Assembly: GCF_000183135.1 (NCBI RefSeq)
Contig: NC_014734.1
Span: 620,001 to 684,000 of the forward strand
From: Paludibacter propionicigenes WB4
Lineage (GTDB): Bacteria > Bacteroidota > Bacteroidia > Bacteroidales > Paludibacteraceae
Length of the DNA stretch: 64,000 nt
Direction: 5' to 3'
Position numbers and translations under genes: made by a program
The notes under the pieces: generated by a model
Told to the model about the DNA's origin: nothing
The model's database searches: none
What the model saw: the letters and a program-made list of their open reading frames with translations, nothing else
In this document: one piece after another, positions 45,886 to 53,787 of the stretch
Position numbering within the stretch: the stretch's first letter is position 1
Layout: each line of letters starts with the position of its first letter

Positions 45886-46338
45886 ATGAAAACAAAAGTA
45901 ATAAAATACATCGTTGCTTATTTATCTGCTGCTTATTTTATTATAGGGGGTACGGGGTTTAATGTCGTAAGCTTCTGTTGTCAGACCTGCGAAAAAGAAG
46001 GAATAGAGATAGTTGCCACTGATTCTTGTTTCGCAATTCATCATAATCTACACCAAAAGAATATCGATAAGCAACATCCCGATTTGTATTGTGCAGATAT
46101 TGCGCATCATTTAGATAATTGCCATTTTATACGTCTTAATACTGATACCCCTTCATTTCAATCAATTCACAAGCTACTTTTAAAACAAATTTCTACCGTA
46201 TTTTTGTTCAATAGTTTTCCTCTTTTTTCACCGGATACGTTAGATTTATCCAATCGAACGGTTTTTCCTCTTTCCGATAATCATTTTTCCTTATCCGGAC
46301 GCTCAATCCTTGCGTTTCACGCTACTCTTCTGATTTAA
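45886..46338 (+). CDS. Small exported His/Cys-rich protein ahead of the metal-efflux pump
   Basis: 150-residue protein from the ATG at 45886. One N-terminal hydrophobic segment (about 7-30) acts as signal or anchor. A cluster of metal ligands follows: Cys31, Cys32, Cys35, Cys48, His52, His53, His56, Cys69, His74, His75, Cys79 and His80. The C-terminal half lacks cysteines. Position directly before a heavy-metal RND pump suggests a periplasmic metal-binding or sensing role. It loosely resembles the Bacteroidetes HYC_CC_PP family, but I am not sure. Confidence 0.65.
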   Translation: MKTKVIKYIVAYLSAAYFIIGGTGFNVVSFCCQTCEKEGIEIVATDSCFAIHHNLHQKNIDKQHPDLYCADIAHHLDNCHFIRLNTDTPSFQSIHKLLLKQISTVFLFNSFPLFSPDTLDLSNRTVFPLSDNHFSLSGRSILAFHATLLI

Positions 46339-46466: not shown

Positions 46467-49400
46467 ATGATAGAACGTATCATTCATTTTTCAATAAAGA
46501 ATAAACTTATTATTGGCTTATTTACCGTTGCGCTTATAGGCTGGGGAGTGTATTCGCTCACTCGCTTACCTATTGATGCAACTCCCGATATAACTAATAA
46601 CCAGGTGCAGGTTATTGCGCTAGCACCGTCGCTGGCGGTACAGGAGGTGGAAAGTTCCATCAGTGCACCAATAGAAGTTGCCGTTGCCAATATTCCTAAT
46701 ATCATTGAACTCCGCTCCATATCGCGTCTGGGGTTGTCGGTCATTACCGTTGTGTTTAAAGACAATGTCGATATTTACTGGGCCAGACAACAAATGAGCG
46801 AACGGATTAAAGAAGCTGAGGAAGTAATTCCTGCCGGCGTGGCCAAAATTGAACTGGCACCTATTTCAACCGGATTGGGTGAAATATACCAATACCGCCT
46901 TGCCGTTGGTAAAGGCTTTGAGAGAAAATATAACCCCATGGAATTGCGTACCATACAAGATTGGGTAGTGCGACGCGAAATGTTAGGAACTGTGGGTGTG
47001 GCTGATATTAATAGTTACGGTGGTTTTGTAAAGCAATATGAAATAGCCGTAAATCCCGAAAGATTACGTGGGATGAATCTGACTCTTACTGATATTTTTG
47101 ATGCACTCGAAAAAAACAACGAAAATACAGGAAGTGCTTACATTGATAAAAAACCGACAGCTTATTTTATACGCGGTATCGGGTTGGTAAAATCGCTGGA
47201 AGATATCGAAAAAATTGTTGTCAAAAGCAATCCTTCGGGCGTACCTGTTTTGATCAGGGATGTAGCCAGTGTTCGGTTTGGTAGTGCCATCAGGTATGGT
47301 GCTTTTGTGGTAGACACTACTGAAGCTGTGGGTGGAGTTGTGATGATGTTGAAAGGAGCCAATGCCAATGAGGTAACCAAGAACATTGAAGCCCGCGTAG
47401 AATCTATTCAAAAATCATTGCCTCAGGGCATAAAAATAGAGCCGTTTCTGAATCGTTCCGATTTGGTTGATCGTGCTATTGGCACTGTTTCACGCAACCT
47501 GATTGAAGGAGCATTAATTGTTATTTTTATTCTCATTCTGTTTCTGGGGAACTTTAGAGCCGGGCTGATTGTAGCTTCGGTCATTCCGCTTTCCATGCTG
47601 TTTGCCATATCCATGATGAATTTCTTTGGTGTGTCGGGTAATTTAATGAGCCTGGGTGCTATTGATTTTGGGTTGATTGTAGATGGAGCAGTAATTATAG
47701 TGGAAAGTGTGGTGCATCGAATATCGATGAGCAAAACCCAACATTTGGGCATCACGCGACTTACGCAGCACCAAATGGACGAAGAAGTGTATCAGGCTTC
47801 GAGCCGGATAAGAACAGCAGCTACTTTTGGCGAAATTATTATTCTGATAGTTTATATGCCTATTCTCTTTTTGGTAGGCATTGAAGGAAAAATGTTTGTG
47901 CCAATGGCACAGGTGGTTGCTTTTGCTATTTTGGGTGCATTCATACTTTCGTTAACTTATGTTCCTATGGCTTCGGCTTTGTTTCTGAGTAAAAATACAG
48001 AATACAAACCCAACTTTTCGGATAAACTGATGGCTTTTTTCCACAAAGCTTTCCAGCCGGTGATTCATTTTGCGTTGAAGCGCAAATTGCTGATTTCAGC
48101 ATCAGCCATTGGGTTGTTTTTGATAAGTTTGGGTGTGTTTAGCCGTTTGGGTGGAGAGTTTATTCCTCAACTGGAAGAAGGCGATTTGGCTGCCGGAGTC
48201 ATTACGCTGCAAGGTGGATCGCTTTCCAATACAGTAGAACAGGTTCAGAAAGCCAATAAGATTTTGCTTGATAATTTTCCGGAGATAAAACATGCGGTTT
48301 GTAAAATTGGTGCAGGTGAAATACCTACCGATCCCACACCTATGGAAACAGGCGATTATATTATTACGCTTAAAGACAAAAGCGAATGGTCGTCGGCTAA
48401 AACCCGTGAAGAGCTGGTAGAAAAAATGGAGGAAGCGCTGATTCCATTGGCAGGCGTGAAGTTTGAGTTCCAACAGCCTATTCAGATGCGCACCAACGAG
48501 TTGCTTTCAGGATCGAAACAGGATATTGCCATTAAGATATTTGGTGACGACCTGAACACTTTAGCTGATAAAGCAGCTCAAGTGGAGAAAATAATTCAAA
48601 AAGTTGAAGGAGTTGAGGATATAAACGTAGAAAAAGTAACCGGGCTAGCGCAGATACAGGTTGAATATAACCGTGACAGACTTGCTCAATACGGACTTTC
48701 TGTTGAGGAGGTGAACCGTGTATTGCGTACAGCCTTTGCAGGAAGTCAGGCGGGTGTTGTTTTCGACGAAGAGAAACGCTTTGCTATGGTGGTGAGATTG
48801 GATAAAGATTACCGGCAAGATTTGGATGATGTGAAAAATCTGTCGGTTGCGTTACCCAATGGTGGTCAGATTCCTTTTGAGCAAATTGCCAGCGTAGCGA
48901 TTAAATCCGGACCTGCACAGGTTTCGCGCGAAGACACCAAGCGCCGTATCACCATTGGTTTTAATGTACGCAATCGGGATGTTGAAAGTGTAATAGACGA
49001 GGTTACAAAACAAATTGATGAAAAAGTTGAGTTCCCTACAGGATATTTTGTAAAGTATGGTGGACAGTTTGAAAATCTTCAGGCTGCAAAATCCCGTCTG
49101 GCTATCGCTGTACCTGTAGCATTACTGCTTATTTTTGTGCTATTGTTTTTCACTTTTCACTCCGTAAAGCAAGCACTGCTCATTTACACAGCCGTTCCCA
49201 TGTCACTCATAGGTGGAATCTTCGCACTATGGCTGCGTGGTATGAATTTTTCTATTTCGGCAGGCGTGGGCTTTATTGCTTTATTTGGTATTGCCGTTCT
49301 CAATGGAATTGTGCTTATAGCCGAGCTCAATCGACTCGAAAAAGAAGGAATTACAGATATTACCGAGCGTGTACTGAAAGGATTGCATACACGATTGCGT

Positions 49401-50846
49401 CCGGTAATTATTACCGCTGCTGTGGCATCATTAGGATTTTTGCCTATGGCTTTGTCAACTTCGGCAGGTGCTGAAGTGCAAAAACCACTGGCTACAGTAG
49501 TTATTGGAGGGTTGATAACAGCCACTTTGCTGACTTTGATTGTATTGCCCATTTTCTATATCTTCTTTTCGTCAGATCGCTTTAAACGAATTTTTAAGCG
49601 AAAGCCAATTATAACCGCATTGATAATTATACTGTTATTTGGTAGTAACGGCGTACATGCTCAGCAAACCAGAAGAGTAAACCTCCGACAAGCAATTCAA
49701 TTAGCATTGGACAGCAATTTGACTGTACGCTCGTCGAACTATGCCGTAGATGTTCAAAAAGCACTGAAAGGAGCTGCATTGGATATTCCTAAAACCAATA
49801 TAGAAGGGCAATATGGACAATTCAATTCATACTCAAAAGACAATAGTTTTACAGTATCTCAATCTTTTGCATTTCCTACGGTATACGCGAATCAGCACAA
49901 GTTGGCTAAGGCCAATGTAAAAAGCAGCGAATGGGAATTGAAAACTGCGCAGTTGGAAATAGCAACCCAAGTGAAGCAGGTTTACTGGCAATTGACTTAC
50001 CTGTACTCAAAGCAAAAGTTATATCAGTGGCAAGATAGCCTGTATTCCGGGTTTTTGCGAGCAGCAGAACTTCGGTTGAAGACCGGTGAAACCAATCGGC
50101 TGGAAATGATTACAGCCCGTTCGCAAAGTATGGAAGTGCGTAATCAGTTGCAACAAGTACTTGCCGATGTAGATATTTTTTCTCAAAAACTGCAGACACT
50201 TATGAACTCCGCTTCGGTAATTTTGCCGGCTGATACCATATTGAAACGCGCCAGGTTGTTGCTACTATCCGATAGTGCAGTCCTATCAGCCAATCCTCAG
50301 TTGGGTTATTCTAAACATCAAATGGAGGTTTCACGTCTAGAGAAAAAGCTCGAACAAAGTAAATTGCTTCCTGACATTAGCATTGGTTATTACAGTCAGA
50401 CGATACAAGGTGAACAAACGGTCAATGGCATTTCCCGAACTTTCGGACCCGGTGACAGATTCACCGGTATACAAGCGGGAATTGCCGTTCCGCTGTGGTT
50501 TGCACCCAATGCTGCTAAAATTAAAGCCGCAAAACTTAAGCAGCAGCAGGCTACAACCAATGCCGAAAATGCAACTAATCTGTTGAAAGGGAATTATAAC
50601 TCGCTATTGGGCGAATATGCAAAGTTCAGTAACAGCCTTAATTATTACGAGAATCAGGCAGTTCCGGAAGCAGATTTAATAATCGATCAGGCCACCAAAA
50701 GTTACAAAGCCGGTGCCATCGACTACCTGGATTATATTCAGAGTTTAAGTCGGGCATTGACAATAAAGCAAAACTATCTTGATGCGTTAAACAACTACAA
50801 CCAAACAATTATTTCTATTGATTACATTACTGGTAAAACCATTTAA
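46467..50846 (+). CDS. Heavy-metal RND efflux pump fused to a TolC-like outer-membrane factor
   Basis: 1459-residue chain. Residues 1-1040 form a CzcA/CusA-type proton-driven RND pump, with PIDATPDITNNQVQV near the N-terminus. The helix-4 charged triad is Asp400, Asp406 and Glu413 (DFGLIVDGAVIIVE); this DFG...D...E pattern is associated with divalent cation pumps (Zn, Co, Cd) rather than Cu/Ag. After the last pump helix comes a basic stretch (KRIFKRKP), a hydrophobic segment and GVHAQQ, which looks like a signal peptide with cleavage after Ala1065. Residues 1066-1459 are a TolC-like coiled-coil protein (NLRQAIQLALDSNL, RLKTGETNRLEM, YKAGAIDYLDYIQ). Such fusions occur elsewhere in Bacteroidetes, to my recollection. 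An upstream TTG start is less likely. Confidence 0.93.
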   Translation: MIERIIHFSIKNKLIIGLFTVALIGWGVYSLTRLPIDATPDITNNQVQVIALAPSLAVQEVESSISAPIEVAVANIPNIIELRSISRLGLSVITVVFKDNVDIYWARQQMSERIKEAEEVIPAGVAKIELAPISTGLGEIYQYRLAVGKGFERKYNPMELRTIQDWVVRREMLGTVGVADINSYGGFVKQYEIAVNPERLRGMNLTLTDIFDALEKNNENTGSAYIDKKPTAYFIRGIGLVKSLEDIEKIVVKSNPSGVPVLIRDVASVRFGSAIRYGAFVVDTTEAVGGVVMMLKGANANEVTKNIEARVESIQKSLPQGIKIEPFLNRSDLVDRAIGTVSRNLIEGALIVIFILILFLGNFRAGLIVASVIPLSMLFAISMMNFFGVSGNLMSLGAIDFGLIVDGAVIIVESVVHRISMSKTQHLGITRLTQHQMDEEVYQASSRIRTAATFGEIIILIVYMPILFLVGIEGKMFVPMAQVVAFAILGAFILSLTYVPMASALFLSKNTEYKPNFSDKLMAFFHKAFQPVIHFALKRKLLISASAIGLFLISLGVFSRLGGEFIPQLEEGDLAAGVITLQGGSLSNTVEQVQKANKILLDNFPEIKHAVCKIGAGEIPTDPTPMETGDYIITLKDKSEWSSAKTREELVEKMEEALIPLAGVKFEFQQPIQMRTNELLSGSKQDIAIKIFGDDLNTLADKAAQVEKIIQKVEGVEDINVEKVTGLAQIQVEYNRDRLAQYGLSVEEVNRVLRTAFAGSQAGVVFDEEKRFAMVVRLDKDYRQDLDDVKNLSVALPNGGQIPFEQIASVAIKSGPAQVSREDTKRRITIGFNVRNRDVESVIDEVTKQIDEKVEFPTGYFVKYGGQFENLQAAKSRLAIAVPVALLLIFVLLFFTFHSVKQALLIYTAVPMSLIGGIFALWLRGMNFSISAGVGFIALFGIAVLNGIVLIAELNRLEKEGITDITERVLKGLHTRLRPVIITAAVASLGFLPMALSTSAGAEVQKPLATVVIGGLITATLLTLIVLPIFYIFFSSDRFKRIFKRKPIITALIIILLFGSNGVHAQQTRRVNLRQAIQLALDSNLTVRSSNYAVDVQKALKGAALDIPKTNIEGQYGQFNSYSKDNSFTVSQSFAFPTVYANQHKLAKANVKSSEWELKTAQLEIATQVKQVYWQLTYLYSKQKLYQWQDSLYSGFLRAAELRLKTGETNRLEMITARSQSMEVRNQLQQVLADVDIFSQKLQTLMNSASVILPADTILKRARLLLLSDSAVLSANPQLGYSKHQMEVSRLEKKLEQSKLLPDISIGYYSQTIQGEQTVNGISRTFGPGDRFTGIQAGIAVPLWFAPNAAKIKAAKLKQQQATTNAENATNLLKGNYNSLLGEYAKFSNSLNYYENQAVPEADLIIDQATKSYKAGAIDYLDYIQSLSRALTIKQNYLDALNNYNQTIISIDYITGKTI

Positions 50847-50857
50847 ATAAATACATT

Positions 50858-52036
50858 ATGACATTTAATAATAAATCATTTATACTGATAACTCTTCTTT
50901 TTCTGACTTTTGCTTCGTGTGGAAAGGTAAATAAAAAGGAAGCAAACAGCCATGAAGAAGTGCTTCCCGAAGACATTGTGGAACTGCGAGACGATCAGAT
51001 TAAACTGGCCGATATACAAACCGGAATAGTGGAAATGCGATCGCTTAGCGGTACATTGAAAGTGAATGGAACCGTATCCGTAGCACCGCAAAATCTGGCA
51101 ACAGTTTGTATGCCATTGGGTGGATTCGTGAAAAGTACTTCGTTGACCCCGGGAGTTGCTGTAAGAAAAGGACAAACGCTGGCGATACTGGAAAATCAGG
51201 AATTTATTGATATTCAGCAGAACTATCTGGAAACCAAAAATAAACTGGAATATGCTCAGGCCGAATATACCCGGCACAAAGAACTATACAAAGATGATGT
51301 ATATTCCAAAAAGAATTTGCAGCAGGTGACAGCCGATTATAAAAACCTGAAAGCTATGCTTAAAGCACTTGAACAAAAGCTGGGACTCATTGGTATACAA
51401 ACTGCACGGCTTACAGAAGACAAGATAAGTCGCTCGGTGGCACTGGTTTCACCCATTTCGGGCTATGTGAAAGCAGTAAATGTTAGTATTGGTAAATCTG
51501 TTTCAGCTTCGGATGTATTGTTCGAAATCGTGAATACCGATAAATTGTTTCTGGAGCTTACGTTGTTTGAGAAAGATGCCGACAAAGTTCGTAATGGTCA
51601 GAAAATTCTGTTCTATATCAATAACGAATCCGAGCAGCACGAAGCAATTATTTATCAGACCGGAAAATCTATTAATAACGACAAAAGCTATAAGGTGTAC
51701 GCCAATGTAGTAGGTCACTGCAGGAATATGCTTCCAGGCATGTACGTAAATGCTAACATCGAAGCTCAAAGCAATCAGGTCACTTCAGTTCCGTCCGAGT
51801 CTGTTGTCAGCTTTGACGATAAGGATTATATTTTTATTCTGGATAAGAAAAAAATGGAAAACGGAAAATCTATGACTGAATACCGCATGATTCAGATACA
51901 AAAAGGGGTAACTGAGAATGGTTTCACAGGTATTACTTTGCCTGATAATTTCAACATTAAAGGGAGTAAGGTTGTTGTAAAAGGTGCATACAATCTGCTC
52001 TCAGCAAAGAAAAATGCCGGAGAAATGAGCTGTTAA
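50858..52036 (+). CDS. RND efflux periplasmic adaptor lipoprotein (CusB/CzcB type)
   Basis: Membrane-fusion subunit linking pump and outer-membrane factor. 392 residues with a lipoprotein signal (LTFASC, Cys21). Order of domains: a hybrid barrel-sandwich motif (PLGGFVKSTSLTPGVAVRKGQTLAILEN), a helical hairpin (about 125-185), the second lipoyl half (SPISGYVKAVNVSIGKSVSASDVLFEIV) and a beta-barrel region. It lies 11 nt after the pump gene. The chain ends in a cysteine (EMSC). Confidence 0.94.
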   Translation: MTFNNKSFILITLLFLTFASCGKVNKKEANSHEEVLPEDIVELRDDQIKLADIQTGIVEMRSLSGTLKVNGTVSVAPQNLATVCMPLGGFVKSTSLTPGVAVRKGQTLAILENQEFIDIQQNYLETKNKLEYAQAEYTRHKELYKDDVYSKKNLQQVTADYKNLKAMLKALEQKLGLIGIQTARLTEDKISRSVALVSPISGYVKAVNVSIGKSVSASDVLFEIVNTDKLFLELTLFEKDADKVRNGQKILFYINNESEQHEAIIYQTGKSINNDKSYKVYANVVGHCRNMLPGMYVNANIEAQSNQVTSVPSESVVSFDDKDYIFILDKKKMENGKSMTEYRMIQIQKGVTENGFTGITLPDNFNIKGSKVVVKGAYNLLSAKKNAGEMSC

Positions 52037-52059: not shown

Positions 52060-52389
52060 ATGAAAATACTACTTTCAATAGCTATTTTTATAGTGGCAGG
52101 ACTTTGCGAAATAGGTGGTGGGTATCTCGTGTGGCTTTGTCTGCGTGAACATAAATCCTGGTGGATCGGTGCATTAGGGGGTATAATACTTTTTGCCTAC
52201 GGTGTTGTGGCCACATTACAAACCGAAAATTTTGGAAGAGTTTATGCCGCCTATGGTGGAATTTTCATTGTTATGGCCATTATTTGGGGATGGAAGGTTG
52301 ATGGTGTTATTCCCGACAGATATGATTTAATTGGAGGATTCATAGCGTTGATTGGTATGGGTATTATCATGTTTGCACCCCGCAGTTGA
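52060..52389 (+). CDS. ynfA: YnfA/UPF0060 family membrane protein
   Basis: 109 residues from the ATG at 52060; an upstream in-frame GTG is less likely. Four hydrophobic segments and the family stretches AGLCEIGGGYLVW, GRVYAAYGGIFI and DRYDLIGGFIALIGMGIIMF identify a YnfA (UPF0060) protein. It is related in fold to small multidrug resistance proteins, and its substrate is unproven. Its position 23 nt after the adaptor suggests co-transcription with the metal-efflux operon. Confidence 0.92.
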   Translation: MKILLSIAIFIVAGLCEIGGGYLVWLCLREHKSWWIGALGGIILFAYGVVATLQTENFGRVYAAYGGIFIVMAIIWGWKVDGVIPDRYDLIGGFIALIGMGIIMFAPRS

Positions 52390-52453: not shown

Positions 52454-52484
52454 TTTGGAATTTCATAGAAGCTTTCTATCTTTG
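52454..52484 (+). promoter_or_regulatory. Consensus promoter of the Cys/Lys-rich miniprotein gene
   Basis: TTTG (52454-52457), 19 bp, then TATCTTTG (52477-52484): a perfect TTTG-N19-TAnnTTTG match, about 40 nt before the start codon. Confidence 0.85.
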
Positions 52485-52524
52485 TCAAACAATTACTTTA
52501 AATAAATAACAAATAACTTACAAA

Positions 52525-52716
52525 ATGAAAAAGAATATTGCCCTATTGTCGCTAATCGCGATTTTTGCTATCGGAACTGTATCTGCTCAAACTGCTCCTG
52601 CTAAAAAAGCAAAAGCTCAAACTGAAACTAAAGCTTGCTGCAAAGACAAAAAAGACTGCAGCAAAGACAAAAAAGAATGTTGCAAAGAAAAAAAGGCAGA
52701 AACTAAAAAGAAATAA
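52525..52716 (+). CDS. Tiny secreted Cys/Lys-rich protein
   Basis: 63 codons. A signal peptide (MKKNIALLSLIAIFAIGTVSA) is followed by a 42-residue mature part with 16 lysines and five cysteines (Cys38, 39, 45, 52, 53) in a repeated CCKDKKDCSKDKKECCKEKK-like pattern. No family is recognised. The paired cysteines suggest thiolate metal binding or cross-linking in the periplasm. It has its own perfect promoter and terminator, so it should be expressed strongly and separately from the metal-efflux operon just upstream. The signal peptide and clean expression signals argue that it is real. Confidence 0.8.
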   Translation: MKKNIALLSLIAIFAIGTVSAQTAPAKKAKAQTETKACCKDKKDCSKDKKECCKEKKAETKKK

Positions 52717-52738
52717 TAACTGCATAAGCAGATTATCT

Positions 52739-52771
52739 AAAGTCCCAATCTTATTTGATTGGGACTTTTTT
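52739..52771 (+). terminator. Terminator of the Cys/Lys-rich miniprotein gene
   Basis: AAAGTCCCAATC (52739-52750) pairs with GATTGGGACTTT (52757-52768) around a 6-nt loop, followed by further T. Confidence 0.92.
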
Positions 52772-52833
52772 GTATTTTCGGTTATTTGACTTACTTTTGC
52801 TTTACTAAAAAAATGACAAGACAGTAAATTACT

Positions 52834-53787
52834 ATGTTTCAGACTAAAGTAGAAATACCAACAACTTCGCTCACAATTAATTATACAACAGCCATACTTA
52901 CACTCGGGTCCTGTTTTGCTGAGAATATTGGACGTAAACTGCAAGAAGTGTACTTTGATACAGAGGTTAATCCTTTTGGTGTGCTTTACAATCCGGTTTC
53001 TATTATTAACAGTTTGGAACTTTTGTTGGAGAACAAAGAATTTACTCGCAAAGATATTTTTGAGTCGCGTTCGTTGTGGCACAGTTTCTCTCATAGCAGC
53101 CTTTTTTCGGCCGTCTCTGCTGAAGATTGCCTGAATAAAATCAATTCAGGAATGTCAGCTGCTGGTAGTTTTCTCGGCAGGGCTGATGTATTGATGATTA
53201 CTTTTGGTACTGCATGGGTTTTTGAAGAAAAAAAGAGTGGGAGAGTAGTGTCCAACTGCCACAAATTACCGGCAGCTGATTTTTATCGCCGCAGATTGTC
53301 AGTAGAAGAAATTGTGGACGGTTACACGAACCTGATTAACAAATTATTGCTAAAACGGCCTGAGCTCAAGCTGATATTCAGTGTAAGTCCTATTCGTCAT
53401 TGGAAAGATGGAGCTCATGAGAATAATCTGAGCAAAAGTACTTTGTTGTTGGCCATTGATATATTAAAGAAGCGGTTTGAGCAGGTTCGCTATTTCCCAG
53501 CTTACGAAATTCAACTGGACGAATTACGTGATTATCGATTTTATGCCTCTGATATGCTTCATCCTTCCGATGTAGCTGTTGATTATATTTGGCAACGTTT
53601 TTCCCAAACTTATTTTAATCCAATCACGCAACGTGTAAAAAAAGATGTGGAACAACTGGTCAGCGATTTATCCCATCGACCGTTGCAACCCGATTCGGAA
53701 GAATTCAAAAAGTTTTGTATCAATGTAGAAAAGCGTAAAACTGCCATTATACACAGTTATCCATTTCTTAGTAATCGGATTAAATAA
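52834..53787 (+). CDS. GSCFA-domain protein
   Basis: 317-residue protein of the GSCFA family, named for the motif GSCFAENIGRKL near residue 25. Further conserved parts are NPFGVLYNP, ITFGTAWVF and DMLHPSDVAVDYIW. The fold is SGNH-hydrolase-like, with GSCF as the Ser block and DMLHPS as the Asp/His block, so an esterase or acyltransferase activity is plausible but unproven. No signal peptide. A bidirectional terminator follows. Confidence 0.93.
   Translation: MFQTKVEIPTTSLTINYTTAILTLGSCFAENIGRKLQEVYFDTEVNPFGVLYNPVSIINSLELLLENKEFTRKDIFESRSLWHSFSHSSLFSAVSAEDCLNKINSGMSAAGSFLGRADVLMITFGTAWVFEEKKSGRVVSNCHKLPAADFYRRRLSVEEIVDGYTNLINKLLLKRPELKLIFSVSPIRHWKDGAHENNLSKSTLLLAIDILKKRFEQVRYFPAYEIQLDELRDYRFYASDMLHPSDVAVDYIWQRFSQTYFNPITQRVKKDVEQLVSDLSHRPLQPDSEEFKKFCINVEKRKTAIIHSYPFLSNRIK

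Follow-up and report, generated by a model that had tools for sequence, protein, structure and literature searches.

A short reading frame for a protein rich in cysteine and lysine lies downstream of a set of heavy-metal efflux genes in Paludibacter propionicigenes WB4. The arrangement raises the question of whether this frame is a real gene, whether its product belongs to the efflux pump, and what the product might do. The window, by which we mean the whole 64-kb stretch of DNA that was analyzed, covers positions 620001-684000 of NC_014734.1, a single contig of 3,685,504 bases. Its genes follow the order DUF3298 gene (opposite strand), CC150, czcA-OEP fusion, hlyD, ynfA, miniprotein, GSCFA, exuT-like, kdgA, kdgK and uxaC, the last four names being assigned by eye. 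The features discussed here are as follows.

45886..46338, + strand: CC150, Cys-containing protein of 150 aa, judged by eye to be secreted or membrane-bound (blastp synteny)
46467..50846, + strand: 1459-aa fusion of a CzcA heavy-metal RND pump with an OEP outer-membrane part (TIGR00914, 1162 bits; PF00873, PF02321)
50858..52036, + strand: HlyD/CzcB periplasmic adaptor (PF16576; TIGR01730 above cut-off)
52060..52389, + strand: YnfA/UPF0060 membrane protein, the immediate upstream gene (PF02694, 6e-43; NF002586 above cut-off)
52454..52484, + strand: predicted Bacteroidota-type promoter, TTTG-N19-TATCTTTG (TTTG 52454-52457, TATCTTTG 52477-52484)
52525..52716, + strand: gene for the 63-aa di-Cys/Lys miniprotein with predicted signal peptide (ORF list, translation; homologues in 33/48 genus genomes; purifying selection)
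52525..52587, + strand: predicted signal peptide, residues 1-21 (MKKNIALLSLIAIFAIGTVSA), by eye; contains the sole helix (5-15) of the AlphaFold2 model
52630..52692, + strand: three 21-nt direct repeats encoding K-x-C-C/S-K-D/E-K units (KACCKDK, KDCSKDK, KECCKEK)
52739..52768, + strand: predicted intrinsic terminator with 12-bp stem, 6-nt loop and T-rich tail (terminator scan)
52834..53787, + strand: GSCFA-family protein, the downstream neighbor (PF08885, 6e-96)

An earlier note on this DNA had placed the miniprotein beside a metal-efflux locus. The efflux genes do lie upstream, but the immediate neighbor is ynfA/UPF0060 (52060-52389), not the pump. CzcA and OEP form one fused 1459-aa ORF in the window, and full-length homologues in relatives are similar in size.

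The miniprotein reads MKKNIALLSLIAIFAIGTVSA followed by QTAPAKKAKAQTETKACCKDKKDCSKDKKECCKEKKAETKKK, with the predicted cleavage site between them (after VSA, before Q22) placed by eye. The Cys/Lys-rich frame of 63 codons that the note had reported is real: its predicted mature chain of 42 residues holds 16 Lys and 5 Cys, arranged around the three repeats, with 0 His, 0 Met and a net charge of approximately +9 (hand count). AlphaFold2 gave a mean pLDDT of 53.6 and a pTM of 0.17, with a helix at residues 5-15 only; such low confidence is not proof of disorder. An antisense ORF of 180 aa (52552-53094) overlaps the gene and was taken as spurious.

The conservation of the frame and the selection acting on it rule out a chance ORF. 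A profile (A1) built from 20 relatives with 44-73% identity to the window protein found matches at E <1e-5 in 33 of the 48 genus genomes, counting the window's own. There are 34 strong copies in these 33 genomes, or approximately one each. The window protein scores E=1.9e-15 against A1, but A1 was built partly from it; used as the sole query, it finds the homologue L002 at E=4.3e-9. It carries the MKK signal peptide and Cys/Lys tail by which we define here a genus-wide family of di-Cys/Lys miniproteins. Counts of promoters, terminators, selection and CC pairs cover 33 of the 34 copies, L161 (G027) having been left out by a filter. The 33 measured copies are 63-133 aa long. For the 25 closest pairs, which overlap and are thus not independent, dN/dS ranges from 0.067 to 0.546 and is at most 0.35 in 24, and the window gene compared with its nearest homologue (L077, 79% identity) gives 0.11. 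Pairs of adjacent cysteines occur 76 times in the 33 proteins, whereas placing the same Cys residues at random would give 25.5 (an approximately threefold enrichment), and Lys directly follows CC in 51 of these 76 cases. Because homologues are conserved, dN/dS is low and CC is enriched, the miniprotein is not a chance ORF; it is a real, conserved gene of its genus. The note had named loss of the frame in relatives as the observation that would undo its claim, and the frame is kept. A collection of plasmids contained no match to the miniprotein by protein or by DNA, and a plasmid-borne origin is accordingly not supported. A profile search of genome contigs returned 3 loci, and only one of them (L086) yielded a miniprotein by the filter, identical to the L082 protein of G064.

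The family does not correspond to any known group with which we compared it. Against Pfam and NCBIfam, the window protein matches no model above cut-off, and PDB sequences contain no match to it. The best Pfam match, DUF6520 (residues 1-56), has E=0.053 and 14.3 bits versus a cut-off of 25.4; at E up to 0.01, DUF6520 is absent from all 20 A1 members. Pfam matches to these 20 comprise three at E 0.008-0.01, each in one member, which we took as chance. Metallothioneins, both bacterial (SmtA/MymT) and animal, are short, Cys-rich proteins with CC motifs between Lys residues, and in these respects the miniprotein is like them. To our knowledge, however, the known bacterial metallothioneins (SmtA/MymT) are cytoplasmic, whereas the miniprotein has a predicted signal peptide and a lower Cys density (5/42); metallothionein models gave no Pfam match in the 20 A1 members and no NCBIfam match for the window protein. 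SilE/PcoE, of the Sil/Pco systems, are described as small, secreted, disordered, repeat-built periplasmic metal "molecular sponges" encoded with an RND metal pump (PMC5008109). The likeness is one of outline: the miniprotein is small and repeat-built, and export and disorder are predicted for it. SilE repeats are built on His and Met, those of the miniprotein family on Cys pairs and Lys; the conserved His/Met repeats that mark SilE/PcoE are missing from the window protein. In a comparison through family models, SilE/PcoE families were absent from the Pfam and NCBIfam matches of the window protein. The C-terminal extension of plant HMA4 also has CC motifs, although it is the cytosolic tail of a P-type ATPase and the miniprotein is stand-alone and predicted to be secreted; we claim no homology. 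That tail is reported to have 13 di-Cys motifs and to bind about 11 Zn ions below 10 nM, of which about 4 remain after di-Cys is changed to di-Ala (PMC6255694). Finally, the window protein has no PF00403 match and no CxxC, and is therefore not an HMA protein. Judged by sequence, then, the miniprotein is not SilE, not a recognized metallothionein and not an HMA protein. A literature search of titles and abstract openings, with coverage mostly outside subscription papers, found no description of a di-Cys/Lys miniprotein family.

The gene had also been called an independent expression unit. A candidate promoter and terminator are present, but independence does not follow, since a consensus terminator scan between the ynfA gene and the miniprotein promoter found no terminator and read-through from the efflux operon is therefore possible. 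The Bacteroides sigma-ABfr consensus is described as TTTG near -33 plus TAnnTTTG at -7 (PMC7366714). The promoter pattern occurs 8 times in the 64-kb window versus 2.85 expected; because the pattern alone is thus weak evidence, the weight rests on position and conservation. The full pattern lies 5' of 3 of the 33 genus miniproteins, the window's own counted (0.2% in letter-shuffled upstream stretches), and the -7 box lies 5' of 9 of 33 (9.7% of letter-shuffled stretches). The window gene and its homologues L077 and L064 have the upstream context CTATCTTTG / TTATCTTTG in common. The promoter assignment is backed by its place and, to a modest degree, by its conservation across the genus. Perfect-stem terminators, by a strict rule, occur 3' of 18 of the 33 genus miniproteins. 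The predicted promoter is of the general kind and shows nothing that points to control by metals, which favors steady buffering over induced resistance.

The note had proposed a search for conserved miniproteins with CC-K repeats next to CzcA genes in relatives. Such a family was found, but the position only in part: a hlyD/czcA cassette adjoins 7 of the 34 genus miniproteins (hlyD within 4 kb), whereas the other 27 are not beside one, some of these lying at contig ends where this cannot be judged. The same slot is kept in many relatives, and the cassette there varies: CC150-czcA-hlyD, or CC150 with a TonB receptor and a secreted HMA protein (PF00403), or none. A TonB gene lies within 4 kb of 6 of the 34 miniproteins; for the TonB plus HMA cassette the count is 7 of 34 if G026 is included, where the HMA gene is adjacent and the TonB piece is on another contig. 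Neither cassette adjoins 20 of the 34. Copies outside these slots occur in other places or at contig ends, and in several genomes the pump is located elsewhere than the miniprotein. In relatives, a CC150 gene heads each of the two kinds of metal cassette (blastp synteny). A CC150 paralogue directly precedes the miniprotein at L038 and L045; in G027, at a different locus (L161), the miniprotein follows immediately after a CC150 paralogue. Among the CC150 proteins scanned, only that of L177 reaches NF047658 HYC_CC_PP, below cut-off.

Genome-level co-occurrence gives the same picture. The miniprotein is present in 14 of 17 genomes with a hlyD orthologue versus 19 of 31 without (p=0.20), in 13 of 19 with the TonB cassette versus 20 of 29 without (p=1.0), and in 26 of 34 with either cassette versus 7 of 14 without (p=0.09, not significant). 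Because most copies lie elsewhere and co-occurrence is not significant, the miniprotein is not dedicated to the CzcA pump, and a strict partnership is ruled out. The efflux-pump context is one among several.

Stronger clues to function come from the TonB cassette. Its secreted HMA (PF00403) metallochaperones, which are MerP/CopZ-like, have miniprotein-like C-terminal tails in some Bacteroidales species. We collected all genus homologues at E up to 1e-10, which gave 19 in 18 of the 48 genomes. In seven, a miniprotein follows 170-588 nt downstream, and the HMA protein's own tail is 10-13 residues long and lacks Cys. Another seven carry tails 37-133 residues long that contain 6-18 Cys, and in these no miniprotein follows within 800 nt downstream; for example, the tails at L144, L145 and L146 have 133, 90 and 102 residues with 18, 13 and 13 Cys. 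The other five (G002, G007, G035 and two in G063) show neither feature, and none of the 19 combines the two. In G007 and G063 the TonB type that accompanies the HMA proteins is more distant (40% identity). Fisher tests of tail against adjacent miniprotein, uncorrected for ancestry, give p=0.017 for all 19; restricted to the 16 whose TonB protein is of the close type, they give 0.0032. In G035 a close TonB fragment (66% identity) lies at a contig end, and the HMA has neither a tail nor a miniprotein beside it; the test was run with and without it, and dropping it from the 16 gives p=0.0014, likewise uncorrected for ancestry.

On a tree of the TonB proteins (15 rows, 14 labeled), the tail label changes at least 3 times on well-supported branches. 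L175 (G062) is unlabeled, its contig ending before the HMA gene, and the tree does not include G026. L047, with a miniprotein, and L148, with a tail, are sisters (100/100), and tail and miniprotein labels are no more clustered than shuffled labels. Three phylogenetically independent pairs show on average 2.7 opposite states and 0.3 without difference; the sign test gives p=0.25, which cannot reach significance because there are only three such pairs. The seven tails score z 1.6-5.0 against miniproteins relative to their own shuffles, or z 1.6-3.9 when CC is kept as a unit, and resemble miniproteins beyond composition. The tailed genomes G014, G027, G034 and G064 also have a miniprotein elsewhere, and tail and miniprotein are therefore not strict substitutes. 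No miniprotein was found at E <1e-5 in the tailed genomes G029, G033 and G068.

Beyond the genus, 108 of 295 order genomes have HMA homologues, and among the best 30 of these matches are 7 tails with at least 3 Cys, three of them also His-rich. One HMA protein (L210, G129) carries EHKCTGQK repeats at its end, and their HKC-G pattern recurs in a stand-alone miniprotein of another genome (L101, G073); the match scores z 8.6 over 500 shuffles. The L144 tail alone as query matched in 0 of 295 order genomes, in a search run without a positive control.

The miniprotein is probably an exported, disordered di-cysteine metal sponge of the envelope, a reading that we find most likely because closely similar stretches form tails on exported metal-carrier proteins. 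The earlier suggestion of periplasmic metal binding that complements the efflux pump is partly supported: the di-Cys enrichment, the two metal cassettes nearby and the HMA tails favor metal binding, whereas the 27 of 34 copies elsewhere and the HlyD test (p=0.20) count against a specific complement of CzcA. The gene product would be a largely unstructured chain of 42 residues, exported, whose Lys-embedded CC and C sites could act in the periplasm or envelope as thiolate ligands for soft or borderline ions (Cu(I), Zn, Cd or Ag). Each CC, together with nearby acidic or Cys co-ligands, would form one thiolate site. The sponge might take up free ions and hand them on, either to efflux adaptors or to secreted HMA metallochaperones; alternatively, it might simply lower free metal. 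In role it would be analogous to SilE, either on its own or attached to an HMA carrier as a tail. P. propionicigenes WB4 is described as a strictly anaerobic rice-field soil bacterium (PMC3072083), and thiol chemistry would be possible in its envelope because it is strictly anaerobic. VKOR was looked for in the genome and none was found; a strictly anaerobic organism that has no VKOR could maintain such thiols in the reduced state outside the membrane. Several results weigh against the sponge reading: the nonsignificant co-occurrence, the 20 copies beside neither cassette, an adjacency that may be passive, the miniproteins that four tailed genomes keep elsewhere, the small number of independent pairs, the general-type promoter, the tail query without a match in the order, and the order-wide relatives that lie away from the metal cassettes.

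A broader proposal is tentative and, in our view, quite possible without yet being probable: that the Bacteroidales have a di-cysteine metal-sponge module that is portable and forms the extracytoplasmic counterpart of metallothionein. It would be either stand-alone or fused to the C terminus of a secreted HMA metallochaperone, would switch repeatedly between the two states, and would serve the metal cassette present at the locus, be it for TonB-HMA intake/trafficking or for CzcA efflux. If true, tiny exported proteins without a family model would make up a predicted metal-buffering layer in the envelope of Bacteroidota. Natural pairs of tailed and untailed HMA proteins, such as those at the sister loci L047 and L148, make the sponge idea directly testable.

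Loci from the wider order bear on two other explanations. A1 matches at least 17 of 294 other genomes of the order (other Bacteroidales families) and at least 5 of 391 others of the phylum; these are lower bounds because G037 was missed at 1e-5 though its protein (L015) is an A1 row. Among 18 order-wide loci, psd-cdsA-like genes are neighbors of the miniprotein in 7 and histidine kinase-regulator pairs in 6; within five neighbors on each side none has a match to the metal-cassette proteins of the reference set. The filter yielded no miniprotein at L124. The miniproteins beside a histidine kinase and response regulator pair are those of L108, L109, L114, L118, L119 and L120 (names by eye).

The Cys pairs might react in the envelope with oxygen, oxidants or electrophiles instead of metals, which would make the protein a thiol/redox buffer or a sacrificial sink for oxidants. 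The pairing of Cys in an anaerobic organism would suit this role, and at L114 and L118 an OsmC-like gene, named by eye, is next to the miniprotein. However, HMA tails of the same kind and the His-containing versions (L210, L197, L205) fit metal ligands better, and we consider a redox role unlikely.

Less probable again is a cationic, disulfide-linked envelope peptide coating peptidoglycan, LPS or lipid head groups. Every one of the 33 genus miniproteins contains 14-30 Lys, and seven order-wide Cys/Lys miniproteins with a signal peptide (L110, L111, L112, L113, L116, L122 and L123), from 7 of the 17 order genomes matched, are directly beside a psd-CdsA-small protein-LUD-FtsH-like row in which psd stands for phosphatidylserine decarboxylase, Psd, CdsA and LUD being confirmed by Pfam in L112 only. 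Such a coat would nevertheless leave the Cys pairing and the HMA tails unexplained, and the lack of VKOR in the genome argues against disulfide linkage. The lipid-row miniproteins are possibly a second subfamily tied to phospholipid synthesis. Several of them end in PVP(A)P-x-K or similar.

Another explanation, lower still in our estimate, holds that the miniprotein is a fast-evolving small secreted protein that occupies a conserved slot without any metal role, the HMA tails having arisen separately from low-complexity Lys/Cys codons. GSCFA lies within 4 kb of 16 of the 34 genus miniproteins regardless of cassette, and TonB-HMA-GSCFA synteny is kept at L144-L149 without a separate miniprotein; cassette and GSCFA thus stay together in its absence, and adjacency may therefore be passive. 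The nonsignificant cassette co-occurrence and the weakest tail similarity (z 1.6) point the same way. Against neutrality stand dN/dS far below 1, the CC enrichment in genus miniproteins, the absence of any HMA locus (0 of 19) with both tail and downstream miniprotein, and the L210-L101 pair outside the genus (z 8.6). A secreted antimicrobial or bacteriocin-like cationic peptide would likewise be small, Cys-rich and preceded by a signal peptide, but this is very improbable given purifying selection, 34 strong copies in 33 genomes (approximately one each) and no immunity, processing or export gene recognized beside the miniprotein in the window.

At L051 (7611-7940, - strand) and L052 (8016-8417, - strand), we noticed another Cys/Lys/Gly protein with a signal peptide. 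It is only a weak match to the profile and has a repeated (C)YVD-NNxVCDNYENKTCTKGNG-like motif, and it adjoins small regulatory and sigma-factor-like genes (by eye).
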